Shown here: positions 1,972 to 41,633 of the stretch, one piece after another
How the letters are laid out: the number at the start of each line of letters is the position of its first letter
How positions within the stretch are numbered: position 1 is the stretch's first letter
IMG/VR virus record: IMGVR_UViG_3300017744_000010
Location: 1 to 54,953 of that record
Source: a virus
Direction: 5' to 3' (one strand)
Length of the DNA: 54,953 bases
The notes under the pieces: model-generated
Seen by the model: only the letters and a program-made list of their open reading frames with translations
Told to the model about the DNA's origin: nothing
Databases searched by the model: none
Program-made: the position numbers and the translations under genes

Positions 1972-4900
1972 ATGATTTCATCAGAAACCAAAATTATACT
2001 AAAGCGCTCTGGTGTACAGGGGCGTATCCCATCCTTAGCTGATCTAAAACTAGGGGAGCTGGGAGTCAATTATTATGATGGCAAACTATATTTTCGTCAA
2101 GAAAATGAAAGTGTGGGGGCTCGAATTATTGAGCCTGGTCAAGGTGACGATATTGGTAGGACTATTTTCGTAACCGTAAATGGTAACGACAATAACTCAG
2201 GTCTTAACGAGAGAGACTCCGTAAGAACTATTAAGAAAGCTGCCGAGTTAGCAGCATATGGTGACGGCATTAAAGTTTTTCCAGGACATTATATTGAAGA
2301 CAACCCCATCGAATTCCGCGATCTAGTTGCGGTTGAGGGTATGGATCTTCGTAACGTTCTAGTTACTCCAGCAAATCCAGAGAAAGATTTATATTTAGTT
2401 GGTGACGGTTTCCACGCAACTAACCATTCATTCGTCTCCAATGTAGATTCACGTAATGGTGCTGCCATTATCTCATTCCGTCCTCTAGAAGGCACAGCAT
2501 CTGATCGCTACTTTGATGCTGCTCGTCTAATCAGAGATAACCTAGACTTCATTGCAAGTGAGACTGTAGGATTCTTAACCAGTGGTTATTCAGGCTTCGC
2601 TGGTGGTCAGAGATCCCAAGATGCTGCGCGTGCTCTTGAGTTAAATACACAGTTCATTACTGAGGAAGCTTTTCAATACATCAATAGTCCTGATTATAAA
2701 GGACCTTCATATGTAAATCCAGATATCAATCAGTGTCGTAGGGATCTTAAAGATATTCTAAACGGTTGGAGATATGATTTAATCTCCGATGGTAACTCTG
2801 AGTCAACTGGTGTAGGTTTAACTTATTATGCTCCTGTCAAGTTTATCAACTCAACTAATATCACTGATTTAGTTTATGATAATACTACTGGATTACTAAT
2901 ACTTGAAACGGAATTAAGCACACAGGTACTTCCTGGGCAGGAGATTAAGCTACGTGATATTCAGCTTGATTGTCCTCCATATAACAATACATTCTTTATC
3001 GCAGGATTTGATTACAACAATGTTAGTGGTGTTGGTACAGTAACTCTACCATTTATTCACGATATTCAGGCTGGTGATACAATCAAGCTAGATGATCTCA
3101 AGTTTGACTGCCCACCATATGGCGCTCAATCATATCCAGTATCTAACTTTGTTTATGATGAAACAACAGGTTCAAGTACAGTAACTCTATCTTCCGAGCA
3201 TAACTTGAAGATTGGTGAAACGATTGAACTAAGAGATCTTCAGTTTGATTGTCCTGCTTATGGTGGAACGTTCACTGATGTTGTAAATCTTGAATATAAT
3301 AATGTAAGTGGTGAAGCCACACTAACGTATGCTGATGCTGCTAATCTAGACGTTGGTGATATAGTATTGCTCTATGATCTCAAACTATCTTGCCCCTCAT
3401 ATGGCAACGCAATCTCAATTACTGGATTCAATTACGACAACTTCACTGGTATAACCGAGACCACATTTGCGACCCCACATAATCTACGTACTGGTGATCT
3501 AGTTAAGTTTGAGAATCTTAAGTTTAGCTGTGATAGTTACTTGAGTGAGTCTTATAATATCATCGCGTTTGATTATAATAATTTAACTGGAGAAGCTCTA
3601 GCAACCTTTAATACTGATCACAGCCTAACAGGCGGTAGTGATGTTACTCTAGATGACCTAGTATTTTCTTGCAATAGCTACATTCCCACTGGAATTGCTA
3701 TCACATCATTCATCTATAATGAAGCTAGTGGTAACAGTACAATTGGATTGAGCCATCCTCATGGTCTACAAATTGGAGACCGTTTCCAGTTAGATAATCT
3801 TGTATTCGAATGTAATAGCTATAGCTTCACAGACATTGACATTTTAAATGCTTCATATGATAATGTAACTGGCTTTGTAAATATTGCTCTAGTATCGGAT
3901 CATGGTAGTCAGGTAGGTCAGCTTGTAAAACTAACTGGTCTTGAGTATTCCTGCTCCAACTCTGGTATCACAACAACAATCTTCCCCGATGGAACGATTG
4001 GAGATGAGTTTGAGATTCTTTCAGTTCCTGCACCCAATCAGATGATTGTCAATGTGGGGGTTTCTACTATTGCACATAGCTATGTGGATGGCGGAACAGC
4101 TACTGTTGGCATCACAACCACAGTATTCCCTGATGGAACACAGGGATTTGATTTCACTGTGACTGATTTGGTTGATTCATTGACACTCGTAACGAATGTT
4201 GGAGTGTCAACTATTGCTCACACATATGTTGGGAATGGCACACTAAAAGTTGGTTTCACAACCACAGTATTCCCTGATGGAACACAAGGTGATAAATTCC
4301 CAGTTCTAGGAGTTCCTTCTGCCAATTCTGTCGTTCTTCAAGTCGGCGTATCCACGATTGCCCATACCTACGTTGGTGGTGGCACTGCATCTAATGAGAA
4401 TAATTTCTTAAGAGTATCTGATTTTGATTACAATGATACTGATGGTACTGGTCTAGTAACCTTACTAAGTGATCACGACTTAATTGTTGGTGATAGTTTT
4501 ATCCTAGAAGATCTTAAGTTCACCTGTGATAGCTATAGATCTACAGCTAATACATTAGATATTACGGACTTCCAGTATGATAATGCTACAGGTCAGTCTG
4601 TTATCACTCTAGCATCATCTCACAATCTACAGCTAGATGACACCATCGCATTGTATGACATTGATGTTGACTGTACTTTCGGTTCAGATGTTTATCCAGA
4701 TGGATCTAGACCTAACTTCTACGATGTACTCGCTGTTTTAAATCCAAATACAATCGTAACGAATGTTGGTGTATCTACACTAGTACACACATATACTGGT
4801 GGAGGAAAGCTACAAGTTGGTATCACTACTAACATCTTCCCAGATGGAACTCTCCCAGCAGGAAATTTCTTTAGAGTAATTTCAGTTCCTGCACCCAATC

Positions 4901-35806: not shown

Positions 35807-36453
35807 TGTCATATTTTAGACAGTTACCAAATATTGAGTATCAAAACTTTTTAACTTCTAGTACTGGATCGCAGGATTACTTATTACTGAAAAATATTTT
35901 TCTCAGGGGTAAGTTAAGAGACGACCTGCAGAGTAATTTTACTGTTTTTCAGAAATATAATATTCGTGGAGATGAGAGACCAGATCAAATAGCATATAAT
36001 GTATATGGGGCTTCTGAATATGACTGGGTTGTTTTAGTGACAGCCAACATCATAAATTATCAAAACGATTATCCTATTACCGTTCAGCAACTCTATGATT
36101 ATGTTATTGATAAGTACGGTACTGCCGCAAATAATATTAATCACTATGTGAGTACAGAGGTTAGGGATAGTAGTGGGAGATTGATTTACCCTGCGGGAGT
36201 TGTTGTTGCTCCTAATTTTACAATACAAAATCCAGACAATCCCTTTCAAACAATTTCACCTATAGTGGGTATTACCAATTTTGAGTATGAAACTAATAAA
36301 AACGATAAGAAGCGAGAAATTTTTATATTAAGACCATCTTACTTAAATCAATTCCTCAACGATATGCGAGACATTTCCAAGTATGGATTTAACTCCGAAT
36401 ATGTAAATTCAGATACCATTAGGGCAGCCAATACTAAAAATACGAGTCCCTGA
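35806..36453 (+). CDS. 53: gp53, baseplate wedge subunit
   Basis: A 215-residue homologue of T4 gp53, which links neighbouring wedges of the baseplate. The N-terminal YFRQLPNIEYQNFL, the middle YNIRGDERPDQIAYNVYGASEYDWVVLVTANIINYQNDYPI, which is the LysM-like portion typical of gp53, and REIFILRPSYLNQFLNDMR near the end support the call. It is coupled to gp48 and to the downstream ORF by one-base stop/start overlaps, so gp48, gp53 and the 123-residue protein form one late transcript. Confidence 0.92.
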   Translation: MSYFRQLPNIEYQNFLTSSTGSQDYLLLKNIFLRGKLRDDLQSNFTVFQKYNIRGDERPDQIAYNVYGASEYDWVVLVTANIINYQNDYPITVQQLYDYVIDKYGTAANNINHYVSTEVRDSSGRLIYPAGVVVAPNFTIQNPDNPFQTISPIVGITNFEYETNKNDKKREIFILRPSYLNQFLNDMRDISKYGFNSEYVNSDTIRAANTKNTSP

Positions 36454-36824
36454 TGGCTAAAAAGAAGAAAAAATCTCCTGATAGGATTCGCCCATTATTG
36501 GATGAAATAGATGGTACGGAATATGCTGAAGATATAATGGATGATTTAATTCCATTATTGAGTGATACTCAAACAAATATGCCTATACCAGGAAAAGTAT
36601 ATGTATATGTTTATTTTGCCTTTACTCCGAACATATTAAGTGATAGGTACCCAATCGTTCAAATTACGGGTGTTTATGATTGGGGTTGGTCGGGTGTAAA
36701 TCTTCATATAGGAAAACCGAGGAATTATAATTTTAACGGTAATACAACTCCATTCTATATGCTTAAGCCAATGGAAGTTCAATCTGCTTTAGCTCTACCT
36801 TTGATGAGATTATATCAAAATTAA
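36453..36824 (+). CDS. Cyanophage-conserved hypothetical protein between gp53 and gp26 (123 aa)
   Basis: The ATG overlaps the gp53 stop (TGATG). The N-terminus is basic (AKKKKKSPDR); the rest looks β-rich (GKVYVYVYFAFTPN, YPIVQITGVYDWGWSGVNLHIG). YDWGWSG is a compact aromatic motif. Small proteins in this position are present in other T4-like cyanophages, but no function is known to me. Being locked between baseplate genes in one operon, it is probably a baseplate component or assembly factor. Confidence 0.75.
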   Translation: MAKKKKKSPDRIRPLLDEIDGTEYAEDIMDDLIPLLSDTQTNMPIPGKVYVYVYFAFTPNILSDRYPIVQITGVYDWGWSGVNLHIGKPRNYNFNGNTTPFYMLKPMEVQSALALPLMRLYQN

Positions 36825-36860: not shown

Positions 36861-37571
36861 ATGGCTCTTCCAAAGATTGCCAAGGTGACCCATGAAGCCA
36901 TTGTGCCTTCTACGGGTAAAAAGATTAAGTTCCGTCCCTTCCTTGTTAAGGAAGAAAAGGTTCTTATCTTAGCTCGTGAGTCTAATGATCAAGGTGAAAT
37001 GGTTAGGGGGATTAAAGATGTTATTGAGGCATGTGTTCTTACTAAACAATTTTCTACAGAAAATTTAGCAACTTTTGACATTGAATACTTATTCTTATCT
37101 ATCCGTGGCAAGTCTATTGGAGAAGATGTTGAAGTTATTATTACTTGTCCAGATGATGGTGTTACTAAGGTAACCCAGACAATTTTCTTGGATGAGGTAA
37201 AAGTTGTTTTTGATGATGAGCATTCAGACAAAGTTAAAATTGATGATACGTATTCTATTCAGATGAAGTATCCCAATATTGAAACTGTTATGGGTGCAGA
37301 TCAAGAAGACATCAGTATTATGGATAGTCTGGAACTAATCACATCTTGCATTAGTATGATTTTCTCTGAAGACGAGTCCTGGGCAGCAAGTGAATCATCA
37401 AAGGAGGAGTTGCTTGAGTGGGTAGAAGATTTAGAGCCAAAGCAGTTTGAAGGAATTGAAAAGTTCTTTACAACAATGCCTAAACTAAGTCATACTATTC
37501 AGGTTACTAATCCAGAAACCAAGGTGACTAGTGATGTTGTACTTGAGGGGCTAGGATCTTTTTTCGCATAA
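36861..37571 (+). CDS. 26: gp26-like baseplate hub assembly protein / tape-measure chaperone
   Basis: A 236-residue member of the T4_baseplate (gp26/gp51-type) family: PSTGKKIKFRPFLVKEEKVLILARES at the start, LTKQFSTENLATFDIEYLFLSIRGKSIG, ITCPDDG, YSIQMKYPN and LEWVEDLEPKQFEGIEKFFTTMPKL follow the family. In T4 this group is needed to assemble the hub around the tape measure gp29. It is encoded directly upstream of gp29. The last codons are TCT TTT TTC GCA TAA: T TTT TTC is in the correct phase for a -1 slip that would bypass the stop and continue into the 56-residue ORF at 37574, giving a product of about 294 residues. This is the layout of the lambda G/GT chaperones. Confidence 0.85.
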   Translation: MALPKIAKVTHEAIVPSTGKKIKFRPFLVKEEKVLILARESNDQGEMVRGIKDVIEACVLTKQFSTENLATFDIEYLFLSIRGKSIGEDVEVIITCPDDGVTKVTQTIFLDEVKVVFDDEHSDKVKIDDTYSIQMKYPNIETVMGADQEDISIMDSLELITSCISMIFSEDESWAASESSKEELLEWVEDLEPKQFEGIEKFFTTMPKLSHTIQVTNPETKVTSDVVLEGLGSFFA

Positions 37572-37598
37572 GTATGGCTCACGAAGATCTTGAGTCAT
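37559..37598 (+). promoter_or_regulatory. Programmed -1 ribosomal frameshift signal
   Basis: The slippery heptamer T-TTT-TTC is at 37559-37565, in the zero frame of gp26. After an 8-nt spacer an 8-bp stem forms between 37574-37581 (AUGGCUCA) and 37591-37598 (UGAGUCAU), with one G-U pair and a 9-nt loop. The -1 frame has no stop between the slip site and the 56-codon ORF. Heptamer, phase, spacer and stem all meet the standard rules for -1 frameshifting. Confidence 0.75.
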
Positions 37599-37744
37599 AC
37601 TATAAAACAAACTTTGCACTTATTCAACACCATAAATACAGTCTTAGAGACATTGAAGATCTAATCCCTTGGGAAAGAGACATTTATGTCACTCTACTAA
37701 AGAACTGGATTGAGGAAGAAGAACAGCGCATAGCACAACAGTAA
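37574..37744 (+). CDS. 56-residue C-terminal extension of gp26 (-1 frame) or small separate protein
   Basis: The ORF opens with ATG 2 nt after the gp26 stop, in the -1 frame relative to gp26. The product is helical and acidic (AHEDLESYYKTNFALIQHHKYSLRDIEDLIPWERDIYVTLLKNWIEEEEQ). The pattern YYxxxFxLxxHHxYSxxxIExLIPWERxIY resembles the T-domain of tail assembly chaperones and small ORFs next to gp26 in other T4-like cyanophages. It has no good ribosome site of its own (only AAGT precedes it), which favours translation by frameshift or coupling. It ends 8 nt before gp29, whose tape-measure helix it may bind. Confidence 0.8.
   Translation: MAHEDLESYYKTNFALIQHHKYSLRDIEDLIPWERDIYVTLLKNWIEEEEQRIAQQ
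37631..37638 (+). promoter_or_regulatory. Possible late promoter CATAAATA inside the 56-codon ORF
   Basis: A late-type octamer 114 nt before gp29. It lies in coding sequence (H-K-Y codons), so it may be coincidental. Confidence 0.3.
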
Positions 37745-37752
37745 TACTACAA

Positions 37753-39681
37753 ATGAGTTTATTTGGAGCTGCTAATTCAGGTGTTGATCCTCAATCGGGG
37801 GCATACCTGACAAAACAACAAAGAATCGCTATGTTCCGCGCTTCACGTGGAATGGGTGGTGGAAATAGTGGTGGATCCGATAAAGCCGGTGGCGTACAGC
37901 CAAAATCGGCTATTGTTGTTGCTAATAAATTTGCAACTATAACGCAGACATTAAATAATAATTTTCAACAATCAGCAACTAATATTTCTGATCAGGCTCA
38001 GAGTAATAAAAAGTCTATTGAAAATCTTTATAGAATTATCTCTGACAAGAGAGATCAAGAATTAAAAACTGAAAAGCAAGAGACTAGACAAACTTCATTA
38101 GACCTTGAAAGGACTAAGAGACAATCCAGAGAGAATTTTGTTGAGGGATTGTCCAAGGCTGCTGCCGCAGCAATGGCACCACTACAGAAAACTGCCAATG
38201 CCGTAACCGGAAAGGTTATGAGTTTTTGGGATAAACTGAAAAGATTATTATTACTATTAGGTGGTGCTTGGCTGGTTGATAATCTACCAGAAATACTCGA
38301 TAGTATTAAGTCATTTGATTTAAGTATTGATAGTTTTAGTACCGCTGTTGCTGGCATATTGCCGAATGTTCGTGGTATTTTTAATATATTTGATGGTATT
38401 GTAAGGGGAATATTAAAAGGTGTTAGGAAGGTTGCATCTACTTCTTTTAGAATTGCTGCTAAAATCGGTGGTACAGCATTTAGAATTGCTAGAAAAGTAT
38501 TTGACTCAATAATTGACGTAACAGCTAGAGTCTCTGGTGCAATATTTAATGGGATAAAAAAATTAGGAAGTAAGTTATTTGATTTATACAAGAGTGCCAA
38601 AAATACTCTTAGTGGTGGTCTTAAATCTGCCCAAGCTGCTAAAAATGCCAAGGTAACTAAACCAAAGGGATTATTTGGGAATATTGTTGATAAGTTGAGG
38701 CAGGGTGGGAGTAAAGTTAAATCTTTTGCTAGCAACGTTGGTGGTAAACTTGGCTTTGATAAGATGCGGGAGGGTGCTTCTAACTTTGCGCGTGGATTAA
38801 AAGATAATATTAGTAGTTTTGGTGAAAAGGCAATGGGGAAATTGAATCCCCTACAGGCATACGCCACTAAAGAAGGTATTGAGAAGGGTAGTAAAGCATC
38901 TAGAGAGAAAGGAATAAGAAATCTATTAACCAGTGTATTTGAGAAAGCTGGAATAGCTGGAGGGGCAGGTAAAAAATTATTAGGTGGTATTGGGAGGATA
39001 TTAAGACCTCTTTTGAGATTTCCTGGTGTTGGTATTGCGGTTGACATAGCACTCAATAAAGCAGGTGGTCAAGGTAATCAAGAGGCTCTTATTAGAGGAC
39101 TTGCTTCTGGTATTTCCGGTATGGTGGGAATGAAAGCTGGTGCTGTTATTGGTGCTGGCATTGGAACCGTAGCAATCCCAATTCCTGGTCTTGGAACTGG
39201 TATTGGTGGCATTTTAGGTGGTCTTATTGGTAGTATTCTTGCTGCAAATACAGCTGATGCTTTGGCTAAAGCTGGGATGACGATGGCTGGAATGGAAACC
39301 ACGTCTGATGAGACGATGGCTGCTAATTATGGTAATATTATTGAAAATATTACTAACAATAATAATACAGCTACGATTACTCCTGCCTCAGATAATAAAA
39401 CAACTCACCCCGACAAGTCTATTAAAATTACTCCAGGAGATCGTATCGATGCTGGTAGCTTTAGTACACCAGATGGAATGCAATTGTCTGGTGGTCTTCC
39501 AGCGAGTACGTTTAACTTGCAGGAGCTTCCTCCAATTATGACCCGTATGGAAAAAGAGAAGCCAGAGGAAATTCTTCCACAGCAGGAAGTTAAACCAATT
39601 AATACTAGAGATCCCCAGACTGATATTTACAGACAACTTGCTGGTAAGATATATCAGTTAACTGAGGTAGGTGCTAACTAA
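37753..39681 (+). CDS. 29: gp29, tail tape-measure / baseplate hub protein
   Basis: A 642-residue homologue of T4 gp29, which sets tail length and sits in the tube until DNA ejection. After a Gly-rich N-terminus comes a coiled-coil-prone stretch (about 60-130), then the motif KRLLLLLGGAWLVDNLPEILDSI (about 160-183), also found in the next protein. Long amphipathic and Gly/Ala-rich segments follow, including GMVGMKAGAVIGAGIGTVAIPIPGLGTGIGGILGGLIGSILAANTADAL (about 455-505), a hydrophobic stretch probably inserted in the host membrane at ejection. It lies immediately after the gp26/frameshift ORF and its stop overlaps the next start (TAATG). Confidence 0.88.
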   Translation: MSLFGAANSGVDPQSGAYLTKQQRIAMFRASRGMGGGNSGGSDKAGGVQPKSAIVVANKFATITQTLNNNFQQSATNISDQAQSNKKSIENLYRIISDKRDQELKTEKQETRQTSLDLERTKRQSRENFVEGLSKAAAAAMAPLQKTANAVTGKVMSFWDKLKRLLLLLGGAWLVDNLPEILDSIKSFDLSIDSFSTAVAGILPNVRGIFNIFDGIVRGILKGVRKVASTSFRIAAKIGGTAFRIARKVFDSIIDVTARVSGAIFNGIKKLGSKLFDLYKSAKNTLSGGLKSAQAAKNAKVTKPKGLFGNIVDKLRQGGSKVKSFASNVGGKLGFDKMREGASNFARGLKDNISSFGEKAMGKLNPLQAYATKEGIEKGSKASREKGIRNLLTSVFEKAGIAGGAGKKLLGGIGRILRPLLRFPGVGIAVDIALNKAGGQGNQEALIRGLASGISGMVGMKAGAVIGAGIGTVAIPIPGLGTGIGGILGGLIGSILAANTADALAKAGMTMAGMETTSDETMAANYGNIIENITNNNNTATITPASDNKTTHPDKSIKITPGDRIDAGSFSTPDGMQLSGGLPASTFNLQELPPIMTRMEKEKPEEILPQQEVKPINTRDPQTDIYRQLAGKIYQLTEVGAN

Positions 39682-41633
39682 TGGCTAATCCCGCTGTCGC
39701 AACAAAAGCAATAGGAATTGCTAAAACTTTAGTAAGAGGTTCAAAATCTTTTCTTAAAGGAGTAGCTTCTACTTCCAATTCTGTCATATCATCTACTGGA
39801 GATAAAATTAAAGCTACAAGTTTAAAAATTAAAAATGAAAATCTAAGTCAGAGGAGAAAGGAGAGAGATACTGAGGAGCTTGAAAGAAGAGAAAGTAGGG
39901 AAAAGAAGAGAGAGAGAGGAATTGCACCTGCAGCAACTAAACTTGTAGATGTAGTTGTTAAAAAACCATTAGCTTCTTTATGGAAGCTTATAGCTGCTTG
40001 GGTTGTTGATAACTTACCTAAGATAATTAAGGAGGTTGAAATTTTTATTAAGAAGGTAAGAGTATTTACTGGATTTGTGAAAAGAGCTATTACTTCAGTA
40101 GGATCCACATTTAAGTCTCTTGGTAAAATTTTGAGTGCCTTTGTAAAAAATATAAAGGAGTTTGATTTTACGGATAAATCAGGCAGGATTGAAACTGCTA
40201 AAGAAGAATTGGATGAAAATCTTGAGGATATATCTACATCCGTCAGTGAAATGGGAGCAGTCTGGGGAAGAGAGGAGGAGGAGCTAGATTATATTCTAGA
40301 GAAATTTAAAAGTGAGGATAATGTAAAAAAAATACGTGCTGAACTTGATAAAGAATTTAAAGATGAGGAGCCAGCTGCCGAACCACAAACACCTGCTGTT
40401 GGCAAAGACTCTAAATCTGGTAAAACATCAAATCGTCAGGCACTTTTAGATACAATTTCTTGGGCTGAGGGAACTTCAGGTCCTAAAGGATATAATACTT
40501 GGTTTGGTGGTAGAACTGACTTGGATTTAGCTAAGCTGACCATTAATCAGGTTGTTGCAGAGCAGAAAAAAAGGCAAAGGAATAAAGATCCCCGAGCAAG
40601 GTTCTGGGATGGTACAAAGTATGACTACAGCTTTGCTGTAGGTAAGTATCAAATGTTGGAACCAGAACTTGCCGCAGTAAAAGCTGGATTGGACCCATCA
40701 AAGGCTAAGTTTACTCCTGAAAACCAGGATAAAATGGCTATTGCTCAGTATATAAAAGCACAAGCTGGAATGAAGGATTCCGAAATTGATTCCCCTCTTA
40801 CTAGAGAAGGTATTGATAAATTAGCTCCTGTTTTTGCTTCTTTCCCGAATCTTATGGGTCCCGATAAATTCGGTAAAGTTGGAACAAATAGTAGTTTCTA
40901 TGGGCAAGGTGGAAAGAAGGAAAGTGAAATTATGGATTTTTATTCAAAAGCTCAAGGGGCATCATCAAATAGACCTGAAACTAAACCAGCACCAGCAGTT
41001 CAGGCACCACAGCCAGCAGCAGCTGCCACTGGAACATCTAAAGTTGTTGATGAATTTCAGGGTGGAAAGTCTGGTAAAATTATAACTTCTAGTAAATATG
41101 GTTGGAGAGAGCATCCTACACTTGGTGGTTACAAAATGCATAATGGTATTGATCTAGCTCCTCCTGGAGCTGGTTATAGGGTAGCATTGAAAGCTTCTGG
41201 TGAAGTTACTAGAGTAGATTTTGATGGGAGTGGATATGGTTACTTTGTAATTATCACTTCAAAGGAAACTGGGAAGAGTTATATGTTTGCCCACCTCAAA
41301 TCCATTTATGTAAAGAAAGGTGATTCCTATACTGGGCAAGCTATTGGTGAGATTGGCAGTACAGGTACCAGTACTGGTATTCACCTCCATTATGAGGTTT
41401 ATATTGGTGGTAAGGATGGTCGTGCGATTGATCCAACTCCATATCTCAATATGATAAGCATTGGCAAGAAACTTTCAAAGAAAGAAACTGCTGCTCCAAG
41501 TAATGTAAATAGCACCTTATCGGGAGCAAAAAACGTTTTGTTGGATGGATTAGCTTCTATCAAGACTGGAGGAGCAAAGATTATTAATAATACAATATTA
41601 ATGACCCAGAAAGAATATATTTCTAGGGAATAA
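39681..41633 (+). CDS. Tail-associated bifunctional peptidoglycan hydrolase (lysozyme-like + M23 peptidase)
   Basis: A 650-residue protein with three parts. The N-terminal ~200 residues are charged helices containing LWKLIAAWVVDNLPKIIKEV (about 97-117), close to the AWLVDNLPEI motif of gp29. Residues about 250-420 resemble the GH104-type muramidase/transglycosylase domain of phage endolysins: LLDTISWAEGT with the candidate catalytic E263, GYNTWFGG, then YSFAVGKYQM. A Pro/Ala linker leads to a complete M23 zinc endopeptidase: MH487-NGID491, SYMFAH538L, GIH568-L-H570-YEV. Together these would cut glycan strands and peptide bridges during DNA entry. It is encoded next to gp29 and before gp27, so it is virion-borne rather than a holin-dependent lysin; it probably replaces the lysozyme domain missing from gp5. 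Confidence 0.88.
   Translation: MANPAVATKAIGIAKTLVRGSKSFLKGVASTSNSVISSTGDKIKATSLKIKNENLSQRRKERDTEELERRESREKKRERGIAPAATKLVDVVVKKPLASLWKLIAAWVVDNLPKIIKEVEIFIKKVRVFTGFVKRAITSVGSTFKSLGKILSAFVKNIKEFDFTDKSGRIETAKEELDENLEDISTSVSEMGAVWGREEEELDYILEKFKSEDNVKKIRAELDKEFKDEEPAAEPQTPAVGKDSKSGKTSNRQALLDTISWAEGTSGPKGYNTWFGGRTDLDLAKLTINQVVAEQKKRQRNKDPRARFWDGTKYDYSFAVGKYQMLEPELAAVKAGLDPSKAKFTPENQDKMAIAQYIKAQAGMKDSEIDSPLTREGIDKLAPVFASFPNLMGPDKFGKVGTNSSFYGQGGKKESEIMDFYSKAQGASSNRPETKPAPAVQAPQPAAAATGTSKVVDEFQGGKSGKIITSSKYGWREHPTLGGYKMHNGIDLAPPGAGYRVALKASGEVTRVDFDGSGYGYFVIITSKETGKSYMFAHLKSIYVKKGDSYTGQAIGEIGSTGTSTGIHLHYEVYIGGKDGRAIDPTPYLNMISIGKKLSKKETAAPSNVNSTLSGAKNVLLDGLASIKTGGAKIINNTILMTQKEYISRE

Follow-up and report, generated by a model that had tools for sequence, protein, structure and literature searches.

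The junction between genes 26 and 51 of a T4-like cyanomyovirus raises the question of whether two separate proteins are made there or, by a change of reading frame, a short and a long form of one protein. We addressed this question in a 54,953-base virus record (the window, taken at its full length), which is close to the Synechococcus phages S-CAM7 and ACG-2014f. The initial annotation had proposed that a programmed -1 frameshift would fuse gp26 to a small ORF of 56 codons in the manner of lambda G/GT. Our comparative analysis makes it very probable that ribosomes undergo a programmed -1 frameshift where gp26 meets gp51, by which two tail assembly chaperone forms would be obtained from one message.

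T4 gp26 and gp51 are listed as hub chaperones (PMC3004832), and Vladimirov, Gautam and Davidson (2022, Virology 566:9-15) named gp26 and gp51 as tail assembly chaperones of T4-like phages. Drawing on that work, one paper describes that in some T4-like phages frameshifting is replaced by a pair of genes, one short and one long and fused (PMC10885494), and another refers to it for poly-T slip signals in TAC-N genes of T4-like phages (PMC12846349). The initial remark that a G/GT frameshift is not usually described for T4-like gp26 has thus been overtaken: both proteins were named chaperones in 2022 and slip signals have apparently been recognized in some phages.

The 3′ End of Gene 26 Carries an In-Phase Slippery Heptamer

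Gene 26 (36861-37571, plus strand) encodes 236 aa and ends in the zero frame at the TAA stop 37569-37571. In profile searches its product matched PF12322 T4_baseplate (E 7.9e-65) and the baseplate hub family phrog_150 (E 1.1e-70), and its AlphaFold2 model reached a pLDDT of 87.4; the top PDB match of this model in a fold search was the HK97 tail assembly chaperone 2ob9, at a non-significant level (E 0.88, prob 0.60). By analogy with known systems, gene 26 is predicted to be the short form of a tail assembly chaperone (TAC-N, "G-like"). Between gp53 and gp26 lies a 123-aa ORF (36453-36824) with a partial match, over residues 3-90, to phrog_429 "DNA end protector" (E 3.7e-16). In S-CAM7 the annotated start of gp26 (L202:3001-3711) is placed 46 codons late, at 3139 versus 3001, homology to the window gp26 beginning at 3001.

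Read directly, the last codons of gene 26 are TCT (37557), TTT (37560), TTC (37563), GCA (37566) and TAA (37569), and they include the slippery heptamer T TTT TTC (37559-37565, plus strand), whose phase relative to gp26 is X XXY YYZ and which lies two codons ahead of the stop, as had been claimed. The -1 frame has no stop codon from 37547 to 37744 and joins an ORF of 56 codons from ATG (37574-37744, plus strand); the reading across the junction is ...GSFF-RIS-MAHEDLESYYK..., and both the open frame and the junction residues agree with the initial annotation. From the slip site, the open frame and their conservation, a gp26-gp51 -1 product (TAC-NC, "GT-like") of about 294 aa is predicted for 36861-37744 on the plus strand, with the junction ...SFF/RIS-MAHEDL..., that is SFF followed by RISMAHEDLESYYK, and with ...SFFR / ISMAHEDLESYYK as the junction peptide.

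The bare string TTTTTTC occurs 12 times in the window against 13 expected, and the raw count was dropped as evidence since it is at chance level. The heptamer goes beyond chance in its phase, its place and its conservation, not in its bare count.

The Small ORF Is Gene 51

The small ORF, left nameless in the initial annotation, matched phrog_634 "baseplate hub assembly catalyst" in the profile search (E 1.3e-28), and the same 56-codon ORF is annotated as gp51 in ACG-2014f, S-CAM7, P-SSM2 and others. It also matched the C-terminal residues 239-277 of 282 in phrog_150, the gp26 family, which implies that both domains are fused in some phages, and gave a profile match to the C-terminus of T4 gp51 (E 1.1e-6). 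The helical character ascribed to it earlier was reproduced by its AlphaFold2 model (pLDDT 85). A fold search with gp51 was negative, as were sequence searches of solved structures, and a sub-threshold Pfam match of gp51 to Stealth_CR2 (E 0.001) was taken as spurious. By analogy, gp51 is predicted to form the C-terminal part of the long version of the chaperone. In no T4-like record examined are the gp26 and gp51 ORFs joined by the annotation, and no gp26-gp51 fusion was found in a plasmid search.

The Slip Site Is Conserved Among T4-Like Phages

In the first 161 loci, gp51 was in the -1 phase in 161 out of 161. An identity cut-off of 80% left 53 representatives of the full set of 185 loci (first scan, further scans and annotated isolates, some contigs being present twice). 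The -1 frame was open into gp51 in all 53, and an in-phase nnT TTT TTN was found in 52 (TTC in 45, TTT in six, TTG in one and none in one), so that the check in relatives suggested by the initial annotation showed heptamer and phase to be kept, and loss was not seen. The codon before the TTT of the heptamer varied (AGT, TCT, GCT, GAT, AAT, for Ser, Ala, Asp and Asn) and always ended in T. Calculated from the genes' own codon usage and with shared ancestry ignored, the naive chance is 10^-12.8 for this T and 10^-9.3 for the TTT, and among other in-frame Phe-Phe pairs of the same genes, used as a control, T TTT TTN was seen in 4 of 52. The phages with the conserved slip site belong to Kyanoviridae, Pootjesviridae, several Straboviridae and other groups, with cyanobacteria, Pelagibacter, Methylophilales, Caulobacter, rhizobia, Pseudomonas, Vibrio, Aeromonas, Stenotrophomonas and Citrobacter as hosts. 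A chance heptamer between ordinary neighbour genes, with no recoding at all, would agree with the expected number of such strings in the window, but it would not be kept across these groups despite variable flanking codons; the within-gene control and the conservation data already contradict this explanation, to which we give practically no credence.

Seven further isolates were read by hand beside the 53 representatives. T TTT TTC was present in S-CAM7, S-N03, S-CRM01 and Citrobacter phage Ci1, T TTT TTT in pf16 and T TTT TTG in phiM9, and the Klebsiella phage Menlow kept the -1 phase without the heptamer. In Menlow (Ackermannviridae, L198:2277-2453) an unannotated gp51-like domain with no start codon follows gp26, and the junction reads GAG ATT TTC ATT TAA TTTTTG. 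The -1 phase without the heptamer was also found in the Vibrio D503 group, which counts against the frameshift. In Vibrio phage D503 (L173:2699-2899) the junction reads TCA CTT TTC AAG TAA, the gp51-like domain is kept and an ATG overlaps the stop (TAATG); this phage has probably changed to coupled initiation, and its annotation holds just a short ORF inside the gp51-like domain.

A T run at a junction could also act during transcription, with the fusion being produced by slippage of the polymerase and not of ribosomes. The poly-T tract at the junction would be compatible with this, and some relatives have T7 followed by the stop. However, RNA polymerase slippage normally needs longer runs, and 45 of the 53 representatives have T6 then C and no longer run; moreover, the codon phase and a hairpin at a 5-nt spacer are typical of ribosomal slippage. 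We therefore consider a transcriptional origin of the fusion highly improbable.

A Predicted Hairpin Encloses the Start Codon of Gene 51

Folding of positions 37566-37605 gave, on the plus strand, a spacer of 5 nt after the heptamer (37566-37570) and a putative stimulatory hairpin (37571-37601) with an 11-bp stem, in which 37571-37581 pairs with 37591-37601. The initial annotation had rightly placed a stem here, and its dimensions of 8 bp and an 8-nt spacer are replaced by 11 bp and 5 nt. The folding energy of -15.2 kcal/mol compares with -4.5 (sd 2.0) for shuffled sequences (z -5.3), none of 200 shuffles being as stable, and in a 60-nt frame z was -4.0. A stimulatory structure 5-9 nt downstream, which is a frequent and not a universal trait of G/GT-type pairs, is present here.

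Across 88 distinct sequences, 95.6% of the cells in the stem were paired versus 28-40% in slid controls, and compensatory, both-sided changes were found at two pairs (8 cells). In the 3′ arm the Ser codon was TCA in 37 of 37 (usage 0.23), the Tyr codon TAC in 34 of 38 (usage 0.21) and the Glu codon GAG in 31 of 31 (usage 0.34); the next Tyr outside the stem was mostly TAT. Given the conserved pairing and the strongly biased synonymous codons of the 3′ arm, conservation extends to the RNA and is not confined to the protein, and selection acts on the hairpin. At the same place Cr30 and L184 carry hairpins whose sequence is unrelated to that of the window hairpin. A significant hairpin was looked for at the junction in Milchi, N34, L041 and L190 and was not found, and among the heptamer-bearing relatives some have a weak hairpin or none, which counts against the frameshift reading.

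Relatives Without a Start Codon Argue Against Coupling Alone

In the window, gp51 has an ATG of its own 2 nt past the gp26 stop, leaving separate translation possible. Gp51 could accordingly be a separate small protein made by translational coupling, with ribosomes restarting at this ATG after the gp26 TAA. A start codon near the stop is found in 45 of the 53 representatives, many records annotate gp51 as its own gene and many genes in the window lack a Shine-Dalgarno sequence, all of which would suit coupling. A clear Shine-Dalgarno is missing for gp51; this had been noticed in the initial annotation and is true, but weak as an argument, and it was dropped because gp26 and the ORF after gp51 lack one as well.

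Eight representatives have no ATG, GTG or TTG within the first five -1 codons and were classed as start-less: L041, HTVC008M (L164), Melnitz-3 (L165), Milchi (L168), Aeh1 (L170), L184, L186 and L190. In L061 the gp51 ATG is lost too, and in HTVC008M and Melnitz-3 the annotation begins gp51 inside the conserved domain. For the start-less relatives frameshifting would be the simplest route to the whole gp51 domain. Coupling leaves these relatives unexplained, together with the invariant in-phase heptamer and the fixed -1 phase; in addition, the gp51 ATG (37574-37576) sits inside the hairpin, in the 5′ arm of the stem, and the domain is fused in T4. As the explanation of the junction, coupling therefore appears unlikely to us, while separate initiation of gp51 could take place in addition to frameshifting.

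T4 Carries an Uninterrupted Counterpart

T4 gp51 (249 aa) matched PF12322 over residues 1-201 (E 3.9e-52) and phrog_150 over its full length (E 2.6e-84), with phrog_634 matched at the C-terminus, whereas T4 gp26 matched PF12322 (8.8e-64) and phrog_150 up to 235 only. In the alignment, T4 gp26 ends ...GLKEFFELL at the slip point and T4 gp51 continues into the gp51 domain. The T4 proteins and the window pair thus share PF12322, phrog_150 and phrog_634, and each pair would comprise a short protein plus a longer one extended by the C-terminal domain, the longer one of the window being predicted. The comparison indicates that T4 gp51 corresponds to the predicted frameshift product in uninterrupted form and T4 gp26 to the short form, and the G/GT likeness drawn initially fits with a gp26-like domain and a gp51 domain in one T4 ORF. 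Proteus phage PM2 and Shewanella phage Thanatos-1 have the same two-gene layout as T4; in these three phages the short and long forms are separate genes on opposite strands, whereas in the window they would come from one locus with a slip site.

In a tree of gp26-like proteins, T4-type gp26 and gp51 fell on one side of a branch (95/87), which is compatible with a single duplication giving rise to the T4-type copies. The slip site is kept in KVP40-like phi-pp2, Aeh1 and Ci1, which are Straboviridae like T4. As the tree does not fix the root, the case for an ancestral frameshift is drawn from the wide spread of frameshifting. We lean toward the view that T4-like phages of the sea, and many others of this type, produce gp51 mainly or solely as the frameshift tail of gp26, through the T6 heptamer and, in cyanophages, a selected 11-bp hairpin hiding the gp51 start. 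This arrangement may be ancestral in the T4 superfamily; in the T4/PM2/Thanatos line a single gene duplication, yielding a short gp26 and a gp51 that is fused, may have taken its place.

If true, this would account for gp51 looking "truncated" in cyanophages and "missing" in Aeh1. Sullivan et al. (2010, PMC3037559) noted cyanophage and vibriophage gp51 without the first ~200 aa and Aeh1 without gp51, and offered no explanation. In our analysis, by contrast, what the short gp51 lacks is gp26 itself, to which the predicted frameshift would join it. In Aeh1, where the literature lists gp51 as missing, we found it unannotated in the -1 frame (L170:2702-2911).

Comparison With Known Chaperone Pairs

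The lambda G/GT pair resembles gp26/gp51 of the window in organization and inferred role, and differs in its heptamer, G GGA AAG versus T TTT TTC. P2 E/E+E′ is a known case of -1 frameshifting, as stated in PMC3931495 citing Christie 2002; the 3′ end of E reads GGT TTT TTG and the P2 record marks a -1 shift. The P2 chaperone pair lies just before the tape measure, a place that the window pair would share if the next gene is the presumed tape measure, and, like the shift predicted for the window, that of P2 falls on a T6 heptamer where the first gene ends. This heptamer of P2 is T TTT TTG, a T6G also found in Rhizobium phage N34 and Sinorhizobium phage phiM9; the second domain of P2 is without detectable sequence similarity to gp51. 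Profile comparisons of gp26 and gp51 with the HK97 and P2 chaperones were negative. The Pakpunavirus/Andersonviridae chaperone locus (PMC12846349) resembles the window, where the shift is predicted, in a conserved -1 shift at a poly-T and a C-terminal part annotated as a hypothetical gene, but has a GTTTTT motif and belongs to different phage families.

In the S-CREM2 virion proteome (52 proteins, PMC10665884) gp26 and gp51 are absent and their neighbours present, as expected of chaperones. On the analogy with lambda G/GT and P2 E/E+E′, the listing of the T4 proteins as hub chaperones and this absence from the virion, gp26 and gp51 would act as tail assembly chaperones.

Genes Downstream of Gene 51

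The next gene (37753-39681, plus strand) starts 8 nt downstream of gp51 and encodes 642 aa matching phrog_3405, of unknown function (E 2.3e-162). The spacing given in the initial annotation is correct; the tape-measure identity given there found no significant profile match in the profile search, and this ORF is presumed to be the tape measure by its position only. Directly after it lies a 650-aa ORF (39681-41633) with an M23 peptidase domain (E 7.6e-17). In S-CREM2, which has a 418-nm tail, the two large ORFs after gp51, ORF208 and ORF209 (L195:984-10055), are annotated "endolysin" and are abundant virion proteins; they measure 1565 and 1456 aa versus 642 and 650 aa in the window, and one or the other may be the tape measure. 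The size of the gene after gp51 was not linear with tail length in S-CREM2, S-N03 and S-CRM01.

Proposed Mechanism and Implications

From the sequence and phase of the slip site, its conservation, the selection on heptamer and hairpin and the uninterrupted T4 version, we infer the slippage, its frequency and the role of the products as chaperones as follows. Most ribosomes would end at the gp26 stop and give TAC-N, the short form comparable to lambda gpG. For a minority, the hairpin would hold up the ribosome while Phe-tRNAs occupy TTT TTC, and the two tRNAs would slip together by -1, from TTT TTC to TTT TTT, helped by the hairpin; these ribosomes would then read R-I-S-M-A-H... through gp51 and give the long form of 294 residues (TAC-NC, like lambda gpGT). 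By the lambda analogy, coating of the tape measure protein would be the task of the short part, and recruitment of tail tube subunits may be that of the gp51 domain.

The comparative tests indicate that the frameshift signal is real and functional. The kind of system is already known; details that may be new are the hairpin, the relatives lacking a start codon and the gp51 of Aeh1. Few marine viruses are as common as the cyanomyoviruses, whose genomes, by the hundreds, are annotated with gp51 as a separate, oddly short gene or leave it out. The contrast with T4 would be a clean case of an exchange between recoding and gene duplication, perhaps in that order. If the shift is real, the gp26 and gp51 gene models would have to be merged, proteins 26 and 51 of the T4 "hub" would be a G/GT-type chaperone pair, and adjusting a single heptamer would make tail assembly testable in a relative of T4.
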